A stretch of 45,960 nt of DNA from Nitrososphaerota archaeon. GTDB taxonomy: Archaea; Thermoproteota; Nitrososphaeria; Nitrososphaerales; Gagatemarchaeaceae. The translations under genes and the position numbers were made by a program. The stretch spans positions 1 through 45,960 of the forward strand of contig JAPCJK010000005.1 of the NCBI GenBank assembly GCA_027886975.1, written 5' to 3'. The notes below the pieces were generated by a model that searched no databases, had not been told where the DNA came from, and saw only the letters and a list, made by a program, of their open reading frames with translations. Below, piece by piece: positions 700 to 4,974 of this stretch; the stretch's first letter is position 1, and each line of letters opens with the position of its first letter.

Positions 700-1023
700 C
701 TATTGCGGAGATTTCCTGACCCAGATTGTGGTCCCCTCGACCTTCACGTCGAAAGGAACCATCGGGACCTTGGCAGGAGGCCCCACGACAGCCCCCGTAT
801 TCATGTCGAACTTCGACCCGTGCCACGGACATTGCATCACTGAACCTGCTAGCCTTCCCCTCCCTAGAGGGCCGCCAGCGTGAGTGCACTTATTGGGGAA
901 GGAGTGAAAAGTCCCTTCGATGTTCACGACGAATATCTCGGCCCCGAGCGCCTTGACAATCTTGCTCGTCCCAGGGGGGACTTCCGAGGTCTCTGCCGCC
1001 TTCTCGTATCCGTCCATGCTCAA
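700..1023 (-). CDS. Rieske [2Fe-2S] ferredoxin-like protein
   Basis: A 107-residue protein that is essentially one Rieske domain. The two cluster motifs are plain: C46-T-H48 and C65-P-W-H68, with the usual GSKFD after the second, so the ligands are two Cys and two His. There is no signal peptide or membrane anchor, so it should act in the cytoplasm as a soluble electron carrier. Its TTG start at 1023 overlaps the TGA stop of the upstream FAD oxidoreductase (TTGA), with an in-frame ATG at 1017 as alternative. In many organisms a Rieske domain is fused to the C-terminus of DAO-type oxidoreductases; here the two parts are separate but translationally coupled, so this protein is probably the electron partner of that enzyme (inference). 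Confidence 0.88.
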   Translation of the reverse strand: MSMDGYEKAAETSEVPPGTSKIVKALGAEIFVVNIEGTFHSFPNKCTHAGGPLGRGRLAGSVMQCPWHGSKFDMNTGAVVGPPAKVPMVPFDVKVEGTTIWVRKSPQ

Positions 1024-2171
1024 CTGATTTGACCCGCCCCTTGGTCAAATCGCGCAAAGCGCGACGGAGACGCCATCTCGGTGAACCAGTCCGAACCTCC
1101 ATTAATAATCATCGGAATCTTGGAACCGCTCAGCCAGCTCATGATTATCCCTTGGTCTCCCATCCCAATGGCTGACGTGACATGCTCAGAGACCTTACCC
1201 ACTATCGGAATCCAGTCCGGGGGTTTCGACCACGCCTCGCCCCACTGCTGTTCAGTCTTGAATTCGACACCAGGGAAATAGTAGGCGAGCTTGTTCTCCT
1301 CTTCCCCGAGGGCGTAGAGCTCTAGTATCAATCTGTCGCCTCTCGGATAGAAGAGGTCGTACTTCTCTTCCATAGTCCAGAAGATCTTTTCTTCCGGAAA
1401 GACATCGCGCACCCTCCTAGTTGGCTCGCTGGCGAGTATGACGGAAGACTCGAGTTCAAAGTGATTCTCCATGCCGAAGCAAGGCTCAGCGTTGGTTGCC
1501 AAGACGAGGTCGGAGGCCCTAACGAGGCCTCCGGGGGTTTTCACCTGGACCCCACCGTTCTCATCTTTCCATTCGATGAGCGGGGTCTGCTCATAGATTT
1601 CGAGGCCCTCGATTCTCGCCACCCCGGAGGCGAACCTCGCAGGATGAACCTGGCCGACGGCATCGTACGCTAGACCGCCCCTGAACCCCATCAGTGGGAA
1701 ATAGTCCTTGACATCACTGGAAGAGAGTAGCCTTCCAGGAAGCCCGAGCTTCTTGAGTGCCCCATATTCGGCCTCGATCTCTGTTACCTCCCCGTCGTTC
1801 TTCCCCACCATTATCGAGCCGCATGACCTGATTCCGCAGTCTATCGCCTCATCTCTCGCTGTCTTGACTATCTCATCGATCACGCCCGCAGTCTCCTTCC
1901 AAAGCTTGTTCGCCTTCTCCTCACCGAACAATCCGCAAGCCGGGACCAAGTTGGTACCGCTGCCGTAGTACAGGACCCCGGAACTCGCGCCAGTGGCGGG
2001 CCCGCCGACTTCGTCTCTTTCTATCAGAGCTACGTCGAAGCCAGCCATTTTCAGCCTCAGTGCCGAGGAGATCCCGGCCATCCCGCCGCCGACGACCAAG
2101 ACGTCCTTCCTGATGTCACTTTGAAGACTTGGGAATCTTTTCTCGACCGGCCAGAGAGGGTTGGCCTGCAT
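1020..2171 (-). CDS. FAD-dependent oxidoreductase, DAO / glycine oxidase family
   Basis: 383 residues. The N-terminus carries the FAD-binding Rossmann motif VVGGGMAG (residues 26-33) followed by ALIERDEVGG, with the acidic residue that binds the ribose. The sequence GASSGVLYYGSG and the C-terminal GMGDQGIIMSWLSG match the DAO superfamily (glycine oxidase, sarcosine and D-amino-acid dehydrogenases). The substrate cannot be told from sequence. The Rieske gene downstream overlaps by four bases, which suggests electrons pass to a Rieske centre rather than directly to oxygen. The ATG at 2171 lies 41 bases downstream of a two-copy promoter element and about 28 bases from a TATA-like CATATG, so the transcript should be nearly leaderless. 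The divergent neighbour at 2311 carries the same element. Confidence 0.85.
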   Translation of the reverse strand: MQANPLWPVEKRFPSLQSDIRKDVLVVGGGMAGISSALRLKMAGFDVALIERDEVGGPATGASSGVLYYGSGTNLVPACGLFGEEKANKLWKETAGVIDEIVKTARDEAIDCGIRSCGSIMVGKNDGEVTEIEAEYGALKKLGLPGRLLSSSDVKDYFPLMGFRGGLAYDAVGQVHPARFASGVARIEGLEIYEQTPLIEWKDENGGVQVKTPGGLVRASDLVLATNAEPCFGMENHFELESSVILASEPTRRVRDVFPEEKIFWTMEEKYDLFYPRGDRLILELYALGEEENKLAYYFPGVEFKTEQQWGEAWSKPPDWIPIVGKVSEHVTSAIGMGDQGIIMSWLSGSKIPMIINGGSDWFTEMASPSRFARFDQGAGQIS

Positions 2172-2196: not shown

Positions 2197-2229
2197 CATA
2201 TGAAGGAATTACCAAATCAGACCCAAATT
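2197..2229 (-). promoter_or_regulatory. Promoter of FAD oxidoreductase-Rieske operon with two-copy element (copy 1 of 4)
   Basis: On the minus strand the element reads AATTTGGG-TCT-GATTTGG (2229-2212; repeat period 11 bases), followed by AATTCC and a TATA-like TCATATGC. The divergent promoter has the same order: repeat, AATTCC, TATA. From the end of the repeat to the start codon is 41 bases. Confidence 0.65.
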
Positions 2230-2253
2230 GATTACGGGTTCGAGGCGACGTCA

Positions 2254-2287
2254 GATTTGGGTGGGATTTGGGAATTCCGCTATATAC
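2254..2287 (+). promoter_or_regulatory. Promoter of secreted protein with two-copy element (copy 2 of 4)
   Basis: GATTTGGG at 2254-2261 and again at 2265-2272 (period 11), then AATTCC and the TATA box CTATATAC at 2280-2287. The GTG at 2311 lies about 27 bases past the TATA box, as expected for a leaderless mRNA. The repeat touches the BRE/TATA region, so a bound protein would affect preinitiation complex assembly directly. Confidence 0.7.
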
Positions 2288-2310
2288 ATAGAGCGAAGGA
2301 CTTTCCAAAC

Positions 2311-3306
2311 GTGGAAAACAAAACACGAAGAACCGCAATTTCAACCATCATTGCAGTAATTTCTGTCATTGTACTGATAGCTATAGCAGCAGGGGCGTAT
2401 TACTTCTTACTCGCACCAGGAACAAACCCATCGACCACCACGACTACCTCAACCAGAACGAGCTCGGCGACAACGGTCGCTCTTTCTATGATTCTTAACG
2501 GCTCAACCAGCGCAGGCTTCTACAAGAACACAGTCGTCACCTTCGCATACACAAAGGACTACGTGTGCACACCAGCGCTCTCAAAGTTCGCGACTAACCA
2601 GACAGAGGCTAACCTAGCAGCCGCGAAGACCTCCTGCGAAGTCGGTGGAGGGAATTCTACGGCGGTGGCAGGGGCAGCTCCAGTCTTCATCCTTGTCCCC
2701 GCTTTCGCAGGGCTCTCGATATTCGGTGTCCCAAGTCTTGGCGCGACAAGCCAAGGTTACCCGACCTTCAATCATCAACTGATATTCACCCAGTGCGGAG
2801 CCGGGGGAACGATCTCGGCCTGCTTCGACCATCCGACTCTCATCTATTCTCCATACTTCACTGCAGTCGAGCAACACATAGGAATCAAGACGGGAGTCTT
2901 TGGACTTCCCGAAGGAGTCCTGCCAACGCCAGCCCACGACCATGTAGTCAACTATGTGGGCGGAAGTAGCATCCCATGGGATGTCATAACCGTCCTAGTC
3001 TTCGACCCGAACGTGATGCCTGACGCGGCGACCGGCCAGTGTCATCAATGGGTGACTTCGGACCTCGCGAACCCGACGGGCAACTGCCTGACATCGTTCG
3101 ATGCCCTCGCCAAGGCGGTGACGACTCAGACGACTGCGACTGCGAACGCCAACATGACTCAGAGCGACCCGATCTACAGCACTCTTGGGGGAGTCAAGAC
3201 CCAGGTAGCTATCCCCGGCGTGCCCATAGTCTCAGACACCTCGCCGACCAACACCAACCTCTTCCTCTACTTCAGCGTCTCTTCGTCCAGTCCGTACAAG
3301 CCATGA
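2311..3306 (+). CDS. Membrane-anchored extracellular protein, unknown family
   Basis: I place the start at GTG 2311 because the TATA box at 2280-2287 sets the transcript start there; the open frame runs 40 codons further upstream but that part overlaps the promoter. This gives 331 residues: a short basic N-terminus (VENKTRR), one hydrophobic helix (about residues 7-31), a Thr/Ser-rich linker (NPSTTTTTSTRTSS), then an extracellular domain of about 270 residues with several Asn-x-Ser/Thr sites and six cysteines that could form disulfides. A conserved-looking PTPAHDHVV segment contains two histidines. I do not recognise the domain. It shares its promoter element with the FAD oxidoreductase, the DUF1059 protein and a 3-TM protein nearby. 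A hairpin terminator follows at 3314. Confidence 0.7.
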   Translation: MENKTRRTAISTIIAVISVIVLIAIAAGAYYFLLAPGTNPSTTTTTSTRTSSATTVALSMILNGSTSAGFYKNTVVTFAYTKDYVCTPALSKFATNQTEANLAAAKTSCEVGGGNSTAVAGAAPVFILVPAFAGLSIFGVPSLGATSQGYPTFNHQLIFTQCGAGGTISACFDHPTLIYSPYFTAVEQHIGIKTGVFGLPEGVLPTPAHDHVVNYVGGSSIPWDVITVLVFDPNVMPDAATGQCHQWVTSDLANPTGNCLTSFDALAKAVTTQTTATANANMTQSDPIYSTLGGVKTQVAIPGVPIVSDTSPTNTNLFLYFSVSSSSPYKP

Positions 3307-3313
3307 GCAAAGT

Positions 3314-3346
3314 GGCGAGGCTAGCCTCGCCTCCTTCTTGTTTTCA
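3314..3346 (+). terminator. Hairpin terminator after the secreted protein gene
   Basis: GGCGAGG-CTAG-CCTCGCC at 3314-3331 is a perfect 18-base palindrome, followed by a T-rich stretch (TCCTTCTTGTTTTC). It lies eight bases after the stop codon. Three further hairpins of this type occur in the window, each just after a small gene. Confidence 0.65.
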
Positions 3347-3385
3347 CACGAATGCTTTTGTTCCAGCTTTTGTGAGTGGTTGTTG

Positions 3386-3910
3386 ATGGTGACCATTCCG
3401 CTAGGCGCAGAGGTCAACCTAGGAATTCAGACCCTCTCCCTTCTCATCATACTAGTGGGTTTGAGATATGCCATCCTCACCCACAGGGCCTTCGCCAAGG
3501 GGAGTGACGATGGAGCGAAGTTAGAAGCCAAGCACAAGAACCTGATGACTTCCGCCGTGGTCGTCTCCGGTCTGGGGGCGATAGTTTGGATGATCCCCAA
3601 CTACTTCCTCGGCTGGTTCTACGACACGGCCGGCTTTGGATACGGCAGCGGAGGCTACCAGAGCTACTACCTCTTTGGGGGAGTGTACCTCACTCATTGG
3701 TACCTTGTTCTTCTCATGGTAGGGCTAGGATCGATTACGGCCGTGTTGGGCGTCTATCTTGTGCTGAGGATGCGCTGGAGCCGATTCCCCGAGGCTCTGA
3801 AGGTAAAGAACTACAGGGCGGTCATGATTGCGACTTGGAGCCTGTGGTTCGTGAACATCTTGGTCGGCTTTCTCGTCTTCTATTATTTCGCGTTCCTTCA
3901 GACTGGATAG
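3386..3910 (+). CDS. DUF420-like four-helix membrane protein
   Basis: About 175 residues from the ATG at 3386 (MVTIPLGAEVN); the open frame extends 16 codons upstream but that part is Cys-rich and unlike a membrane N-terminus. Four hydrophobic helices are visible (about residues 12-30, 52-73, 97-122 and 143-166) with conserved-looking histidines in the loops (LTHRAF, YLTHWYL). The pattern resembles DUF420 proteins, which in bacteria sit near haem-copper oxidase and haem A genes and help cytochrome oxidase assembly. The assignment is by pattern only. It follows the secreted protein gene on the same strand with a terminator between; no copy of the two-copy element is seen upstream. Confidence 0.55.
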   Translation: MVTIPLGAEVNLGIQTLSLLIILVGLRYAILTHRAFAKGSDDGAKLEAKHKNLMTSAVVVSGLGAIVWMIPNYFLGWFYDTAGFGYGSGGYQSYYLFGGVYLTHWYLVLLMVGLGSITAVLGVYLVLRMRWSRFPEALKVKNYRAVMIATWSLWFVNILVGFLVFYYFAFLQTG

Positions 3911-3943
3911 ACTCGGACAAAGACTCGGTCAGTTTCGATTCGC

Positions 3944-3971
3944 AAGAAAAAGAGAGGAGGCTTGCGCCTCC
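3944..3971 (-). terminator. Hairpin terminator of the DUF1059 gene
   Basis: On the minus strand GGAGGC-GCAA-GCCTCC (3971-3956) is followed by TCTCTTTTTCTTG, a bacterial-style hairpin plus U-run nine bases after the stop codon at 3980. Confidence 0.7.
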
Positions 3972-3979
3972 CATGTCTC

Positions 3980-4159
3980 TTACATCGCGGGACGAATAGC
4001 CGCCTGCAGCTTCTGGGCGATCTCTGCAGGAACCTCGTTCATCTGATGGGTCTGCTTGGCGTGGACCTTTGTTTTGGACACGACTTCGTCCGCCGAGCTG
4101 CCTGTCGCTGCCCACTTACAGCCACACACCTGTGCTAGGTCTGCCGAATATCCGTTCAT
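3980..4159 (-). CDS. DUF1059 family small protein
   Basis: 59 residues from ATG 4159 (MNGYSADLAQVCGC); a TTG at 4174 is a less likely start because a TATA-like CTAATTAG at about 4182-4189 places transcription at the ATG. The sequence has the DUF1059 pattern: CGCKW early, a middle SADEVV helix, then VHAKQTHQM and EIAQKLQAAIR. DUF1059 proteins are small, widespread in archaea and actinobacteria, and of unknown function. The gene has its own promoter with the two-copy element (4196-4214) and its own hairpin terminator, so it is a monocistronic regulated unit. A second, more divergent relative lies at 17087-17248. Confidence 0.78.
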   Translation of the reverse strand: MNGYSADLAQVCGCKWAATGSSADEVVSKTKVHAKQTHQMNEVPAEIAQKLQAAIRPAM

Positions 4160-4180
4160 GAACTTCAGAACCAATAATTC

Positions 4181-4214
4181 CTAATTAGCGATTTGCCCAA
4201 ATCAGGCCCAAATC
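4181..4214 (-). promoter_or_regulatory. Promoter of DUF1059 gene with two-copy element (copy 3 of 4)
   Basis: On the minus strand GATTTGGG-CCT-GATTTGGG (4214-4196), then CAAATCG and a TATA-like GCTAATTAG. The ATG at 4159 is 37 bases after the repeat. The copy is perfect in both halves. Confidence 0.7.
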
Positions 4215-4229
4215 GCGGGCCCGGTTTGC

Positions 4230-4541
4230 TCAGCGCCAGGTTACCCTGACGAGGTTGGCCAGGGCCAATGACTCCAACGCGTTGATGGCGACGAGATATG
4301 GCGCTGCAGCCACGACGATCGCTTGGGCAGAGGGGACGAGGCCATACAAGACGTACCAGAAGACTATGATTACCCCGTTCTGAATCAGGAAGAAGATAGC
4401 GAAGCTCATCAGTGATAGACTGAGTGATGAGCGGACTCTCCGCCAACTCTGGAAGTAGAAGGCTACAAGGAGAATCACGAAAGCCACGTTGAGAAAGGCG
4501 AATATGGCGGCCACGTTCATCCAGAATATATCGAACGCCAT
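4230..4541 (-). CDS. Three-helix membrane protein, unknown function
   Basis: 103 residues, nearly all hydrophobic: helices at about 8-29, 41-65 and 68-97, with a basic loop QSWRRVRSSLS between the first two and a short ending LVRVTWR. There is no recognisable motif. It resembles in size and layout small archaeal 3-TM proteins that accompany regulators, but I cannot name a family. A TATA box (AGATATAG, about 4563-4571) and the two-copy element (4579-4597) lie upstream, giving a leaderless transcript at ATG 4541. The promoter lies inside the 3' end of the preceding regulator gene, so this gene can be controlled apart from it. Confidence 0.7.
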   Translation of the reverse strand: MAFDIFWMNVAAIFAFLNVAFVILLVAFYFQSWRRVRSSLSLSLMSFAIFFLIQNGVIIVFWYVLYGLVPSAQAIVVAAAPYLVAINALESLALANLVRVTWR

Positions 4542-4562
4542 CTAGAATTTAGGCCCCTTCTC

Positions 4563-4597
4563 GCTATATCTAACTTTGCCCAAATCTTGCCCACATC
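4563..4597 (-). promoter_or_regulatory. Promoter of 3-TM protein with two-copy element (copy 4 of 4)
   Basis: On the minus strand GATGTGGG-CAA-GATTTGGG (4597-4579), then CAAAG and the TATA box TTAGATATAG; the ATG at 4541 is 38 bases from the repeat. The site overlaps the last codons of the winged-helix gene at 4570-4974. Confidence 0.68.
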
Positions 4598-4974
4598 GAT
4601 TTTACTGAATCGAAGAACTTTTCGAAATAAGGAGTGAGGAAATAGACCGCGCCATAGGTGCCCTTGGAGCTAGCTACTATCACACCGTTCTCCTCTAGAA
4701 GCTTGATGTGATGCTGGACCGTCTTGTAATCCAGACCCAGTTTCTCGGAAATCTTGTTGGGGTTCATTGGTTCCGTACGGAGGAGTTCCACAATCCTTGA
4801 TCTGTTTTGACCACCGCGGGTCCCCACGAAGACATAGACCATCATTCGCTTGAAAGAAGGGTCGAGGACGCTGGAAGTTGAGGCACCACTTGGTTCGGAG
4901 GCAATCTGCCGAAGGTAGGAAGATAGTCTTCCCGTCAACGTCCACCAGACAGGGAATTTGATGAGGCTGCTCAT
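4570..4974 (-). CDS. Winged-helix transcriptional regulator (ArsR-like)
   Basis: 134 residues from ATG 4974, which overlaps the stop of the BtpA gene as ATGA; the longer frame to 5031 would lie inside that gene. The N-terminal half is unassigned. The C-terminal half is a winged helix: GGQNRSRIVELLRTEPMNP, KISEKLGLDYKTVQHHIKLL (recognition helix) and ENGVIVASSKG (wing), as in archaeal ArsR-like regulators. The ending TPYFEKFFDSVKSMWARF may dimerise. It sits in the middle of four promoters that share one element, so it is the obvious candidate regulator of them, but that is inference from position only. Its own operon promoter upstream of BtpA lacks the element. Confidence 0.8.
   Translation of the reverse strand: MSSLIKFPVWWTLTGRLSSYLRQIASEPSGASTSSVLDPSFKRMMVYVFVGTRGGQNRSRIVELLRTEPMNPNKISEKLGLDYKTVQHHIKLLEENGVIVASSKGTYGAVYFLTPYFEKFFDSVKSMWARFGQS

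Follow-up and report, generated by a model that had tools for sequence, protein, structure and literature searches.

Genes and promoter elements of the locus

The window, by which we mean the whole stretch of 45,960 nucleotides that was analysed, contains a small group of genes around a shared promoter element. The genes and promoters are as follows (coordinates, strand, feature, basis).

700..1023, minus: Rieske [2Fe-2S] protein (PF00355), in an operon with the FAD-dependent oxidoreductase; Pfam
1020..2171, minus: FAD-dependent oxidoreductase (DAO, PF01266); Pfam
2197..2229, minus: FAD-Rieske promoter, element 2211-2229 with 2 mismatches (AATTTGGG TCT GATTTGGT), TATA-like CATATG 2197-2202; pattern search, promoter alignment
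2254..2286, plus: SEC promoter, perfect element 2254-2272, TATATA 2281-2286; pattern search, promoter alignment
2311..3306, plus: SEC, an anchored extracytoplasmic protein, strongly conserved; sequence comparison
3386..3910, plus: multi-TM protein downstream of SEC, without its own element; kept beside SEC in G003, G025, G005, and G026
3980..4159, minus: DUF1059 protein (PF06348), 59 aa; Pfam
4182..4214, minus: DUF1059 promoter, perfect element 4196-4214, TAATTA 4182-4187; pattern search, promoter alignment
4230..4541, minus: 3-TM protein of 103 aa (TM3), conserved partner of the winged-helix protein; profile search, pairing counts
4565..4597, minus: 3-TM gene promoter, element 4579-4597 with 1 mismatch, GATATA 4565-4570; pattern search, cross-species conservation
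4570..4974, minus: winged-helix protein of ArsR fold (wHTH), 134 aa without cysteine, proposed as reader of the element; Pfam HTH_5, structure model, co-occurrence

Across 8 sequences, about 90 positions in the extracytoplasmic part of SEC are invariant, and the protein belongs to no known family. Its structure prediction gave a mean pLDDT of 31 and no usable fold.

The first-pass annotation had claimed a direct repeat, GATTTGGG-N3-GATTTGGG, at four promoters. All four copies are present, each is directed at its own gene, and the half-sites recur with the period of 11 bases that had been given. A TATA-like box lies downstream of every copy, as described, and starts exactly 8 bp past the element. 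The near-constant gap between element and start codon was also found, but it is 36-39 bases and not 37-41. In the TM3 promoter the element lies within the last wHTH codons, and GATATA adjoins and overlaps the wHTH stop codon. With up to 3 mismatches allowed, the window has no copy beyond these four, in agreement with the annotation, and 100 dinucleotide shuffles of the window gave a mean of 0.23 copies and a maximum of 2 at the same threshold.

The genome is a metagenomic bin of 2.05 Mb in 151 contigs, and the element is not randomly scattered over it. Copies with at most 1 mismatch occur at this locus and on the short contigs C17 (L028) and C34 (L029), and nowhere else. Their identity to this locus is 86% for C17 and 85% for C34. 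The best explanation for both is a sister strain that was binned with the main genome, which would be a second related strain in the bin. Allowing 2 mismatches added one match, on C57, without a TATA box. Copies with 3 mismatches and TATA boxes are found on C114, C146, and C51, each at a paralogous wHTH locus.

Conservation of the element in relatives

The close relatives of this genome are groundwater and soil MAGs of Thaumarchaeota/Nitrososphaerota, together with 'Ca. Gagatemarchaeum'. Among 60 related genomes, nine besides this one encode a wHTH orthologue with at least 55% identity, and all nine have elements at the wHTH locus. Loss of the repeat in relatives that keep the genes had been named as evidence against a regulon; where genes and regulator are kept, the repeat is kept too. 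The alignment of 45 promoters, in which the TATA-proximal pair represented arrays of three or four half-sites, gave the consensus GATTTGGG-YNN-RATTTGGG-NAAW-N4-TATA, with flanking information near zero and an A at column 28 in 45 of 45 promoters. The combined element and TATA pattern had 33 matches (at most 1 mismatch) in 46 family genomes, each of them next to a wHTH-TM3 pair or at a target gene in a genome with such a pair. The reversed pattern had 0 matches in these 46 genomes at the same threshold, and those family genomes that lack this wHTH clade had none of the forward pattern. The spacer of 3 bp accounted for 27 matches, and every other spacer for at most 2.

Repeats that abut BRE and TATA could be a core-promoter feature of the lineage or a chance similarity of promoters. 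We rejected this explanation on the shuffles, the genome-wide search, the spacer specificity, and the element and TATA search, and give it next to no weight: the bin has no other TATA-linked copy of the element, and relatives without the regulator have none.

Gene order varies among the relatives. SEC is placed between TM3 and DUF1059 in G023, G034, and G004, while FAD-Rieske-wHTH-TM3 stand in one row on one strand in G026 and G005. In G025 the FAD/SEC pair is on C19 at 27.7 kb and wHTH-TM3-DUF1059 on C3 at 1 kb, and elements are present at both unlinked parts. The elements travel with their genes in each rearranged order. SEC paralogues unlinked to wHTH (G016, G028, G035, G004 C44, and G023 C66) have no element. 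The same element thus stands at all members of the group, across species and after rearrangement, as expected of a regulon. The unit that the first-pass annotation called a 'local regulon' is local in this genome only, as its parts in G025 are at least 27 kb apart.

Since the TM3-promoter element overlaps the wHTH coding sequence, its conservation is partly confounded. Protein coding alone was rejected as the full explanation for this copy, because a period of 11, not being divisible by 3, puts the half-sites in different codon frames. In G025 an in-frame TGA in the spacer ends the wHTH frame, and the second half-site and the TATA box are intact. The strongest case for conservation of the DNA itself at the TM3 promoter, and not of the protein alone, is made by this spacer stop.

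The winged-helix protein as the candidate reader

The wHTH protein matched Pfam HTH_5 with 33 bits (cut-off 22), and its AF2 model (mean pLDDT 77) has an ArsR-like winged-helix fold, with CzrA/SmtB as the best PDB matches (TM-score by target about 0.7). Against NCBIfam HTH_metalloreg it scored 33.1 bits, below the cut-off of 55. A cysteine metal site is absent, as there is no cysteine in its 134 aa, and the protein is thus no classical sensor of metals or thiols.

The winged-helix gene had been put forward as the regulator, and this candidacy is supported by co-occurrence with the element, by adjacency, and by variant repeats beside wHTH paralogues. Because the elements withstand rearrangement and SEC paralogues away from the regulator are element-free, wHTH is likely to be the reader. 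Its recognition helix, DYKT(V/I)(Q/R)HH, is strongly kept across archaea. Paralogues in the HtrA group have the helix DYTTVRHH and half-sites of the GATTTAGG/GATTTCGG types, and those with DYRTI(M/T)HH have GATTCTGA types. These few cases fit wHTH as the putative reader. In divergent wHTH-TM3 pairs (e.g., L107, L121, L124, L125, and L204), helix changes accompany altered half-sites upstream of TM3. A recognition code between wHTH helix and half-sites is possible.

Another, unlinked factor might read the element, with the wHTH-TM3 pair as a passenger of the locus. In favour of such a factor, the genome encodes several paralogous wHTH proteins. Nevertheless, the element and TATA pattern is absent from family genomes without this wHTH clade, the wHTH paralogues adjoin their own variant repeats, and the wHTH-TM3 pair is all that this locus and distant phyla have in common. 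We therefore regard an unlinked reader as improbable.

TM3 and wHTH-TM3 modules in other archaea

A TM3 profile gave 64 matches in 61 genomes, and 60 of the 64 are within 700 bp of a wHTH gene, 35 directly downstream and 25 divergent. TM3 matched no family in Pfam or NCBIfam, and its identity with a known family of these collections was ruled out. The annotation had treated the four promoter-linked genes alike as targets. TM3 is indeed preceded by the element, but it is not an arbitrary target: it is the conserved partner of wHTH in many archaea.

We searched 57 non-redundant wHTH-TM3 pairs from many phyla with the pattern derived from this clade. The element (at most 3 mismatches) was found no more than 170 bases upstream of TM3 in 17 pairs, against 0.22 on average and at most 4 with permuted half-sites, and the 3-bp spacer alone stood out. 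Twelve of these 17 are from Nitrososphaerota and five from Woesearchaeota, Thorarchaeota, Thermoplasmatota, Methanosarcinales, and Methanobacteriaceae. The positive pairs are mostly tandem, with the site overlapping the wHTH coding end; this overlap does not affect divergent pairs or sites that precede other genes. Outside the wHTH gene, the element was enriched in non-halophilic archaeal loci (6 vs 0.05, at most 2 mismatches). Many distant pairs, above all those of haloarchaea, had no clear copy, and in haloarchaeal loci outside the wHTH gene the exact element was not clearly enriched. Homologous modules with similar 11-bp-phased elements occur in other archaeal phyla. Since TM3 is constantly adjacent to wHTH and has its own element, we infer that it controls wHTH, as a membrane partner or sensor. 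TM3 may also be a plain target and not a sensor.

The genes behind such elements elsewhere encode mostly exported or membrane proteins. One is a membrane-anchored HtrA-like protease with a PDZ domain, in an operon of the order element-HtrA-wHTH-TM protein (contig C51 of this bin, G004, G006, G008, and others). On C51 (G000, L109) the 11-bp repeat, the HtrA-like protease, wHTH, and the TM protein span 388-2525 on the minus strand, and the half-sites of this paralogous module are variants, for instance GATTTAGG/GATTTCGG. G004, G006, and G008 share the operon, and G002 and G014 likely do as well. Further target genes encode DUF4331, cupredoxin, Tat-signal, and virginiamycin-lyase-like proteins. 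The DUF4331-type genes at L134, L135, L118, and L227 have an element of the same kind and a TATA box upstream, with a wHTH-TM3 pair alongside. In an uncultured Methanomicrobiales archaeon (L151), three element arrays, at 4406, 6988, and 9282, stand before large secreted proteins.

Proposed mechanism

We consider it likely that the four promoters form one regulon in which wHTH reads the element, most likely as an activator, and TM3 probably signals to it. The ArsR-fold wHTH would bind one face of the DNA at the tandem RATTTGGG half-sites, which recur every 11 bp. Its place would be next to BRE, always 8 bp ahead of the TATA box, where it would most likely activate transcription by recruiting TFB and/or TBP. 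It would drive the FAD-Rieske oxidoreductase, the surface-anchored protein, the DUF1059 protein, and TM3, its own partner in the membrane; TM3 in turn probably returns a membrane or envelope signal to wHTH. We infer from sequence and gene arrangement that wHTH binds directly and activates, and that TM3 has this role.

The same regulon and reader would also accommodate repression, with wHTH blocking TFB beside BRE until a signal, perhaps via TM3, releases it. ArsR/SmtB proteins are mostly repressors, including the relatives CzrA and SmtB, the element runs up to the edge of BRE, and an element touching BRE could equally repress. In G026 and G005, moreover, wHTH is in a row behind element-led FAD-Rieske genes, as is often the case with autorepressors. 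Activation is favoured because the site is fixed just upstream of BRE/TATA and extra half-sites occur on the far side only; the TATA spacing is invariant over 45 promoters. According to PMC5512572, archaeal activators typically bind upstream of BRE, and repressors overlap BRE/TATA or lie downstream, so that the position of the element is typical of activators. Repression is thus a rather unlikely, though serious, alternative to activation by wHTH.

Comparison with known regulators

EarA, the archaellum activator of Methanococcus maripaludis and Pyrococcus, is a wHTH protein proposed to recruit TFB (PMC5512572). Several short sites lie immediately upstream of BRE/TATA (PMC5512572), and this layout is found here as well. 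The EarA half-site is TACATA and its target the archaellum, whereas the half-site here is RATTTGGG, and the passages of PMC5512572 consulted here mention no TM3-like partner for EarA. Ptr2 and TFB-RF1 (PF1088) are likewise described there as archaeal activators that bind upstream of TATA and recruit TBP or TFB (PMC5512572), but they are other regulators with other sites. ArnR/ArnR1 of Sulfolobus are membrane-tied HTH regulators that activate surface-structure genes (PMC6396743). They are single polypeptides with their own TM helices and act at inverted-repeat boxes, whereas in the present locus one gene encodes the regulator and another the membrane protein. The wHTH protein shares the fold and the HTH_5 domain with ArsR/SmtB proteins (CzrA, SmtB), but it lacks cysteine, falls below the metalloregulator cut-off (33 vs 55 bits), and is associated with direct repeats. 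Inverted repeats are usual for the sites of the ArsR/SmtB family. CsmR of Haloferax was set aside as a counterpart, being of the Lrp/AsnC type with a palindromic site.

Open-access PMC papers on GATTTGGG, DUF7521, and wHTH/membrane-protein pairs yielded no description of the module, and the wHTH-TM3 regulatory system appears not to have been described previously. To our knowledge, few archaeal activators are known, and very few archaeal routes from a signal to a promoter.

More tentatively, wHTH-TM3 might represent an archaea-wide, undescribed form of membrane-coupled signalling. A wHTH activator, distinct from the small membrane protein that controls it, would recognise 11-bp-phased repeats in promoters whose genes encode exported proteins, among them HtrA protease, cupredoxin, DUF4331, and SEC. 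Such a system would be an archaeal counterpart of envelope-stress regulation. Sequence is enough to predict the regulator, its sites, and a likely partner in the membrane for many archaea, among them Methanobacteriaceae, Methanosarcinales, and haloarchaea. These groups have cultured members, and thus the system is testable at once. It offers handles on exported proteins without a known role and on a family of small membrane proteins that has no name in Pfam or NCBIfam.
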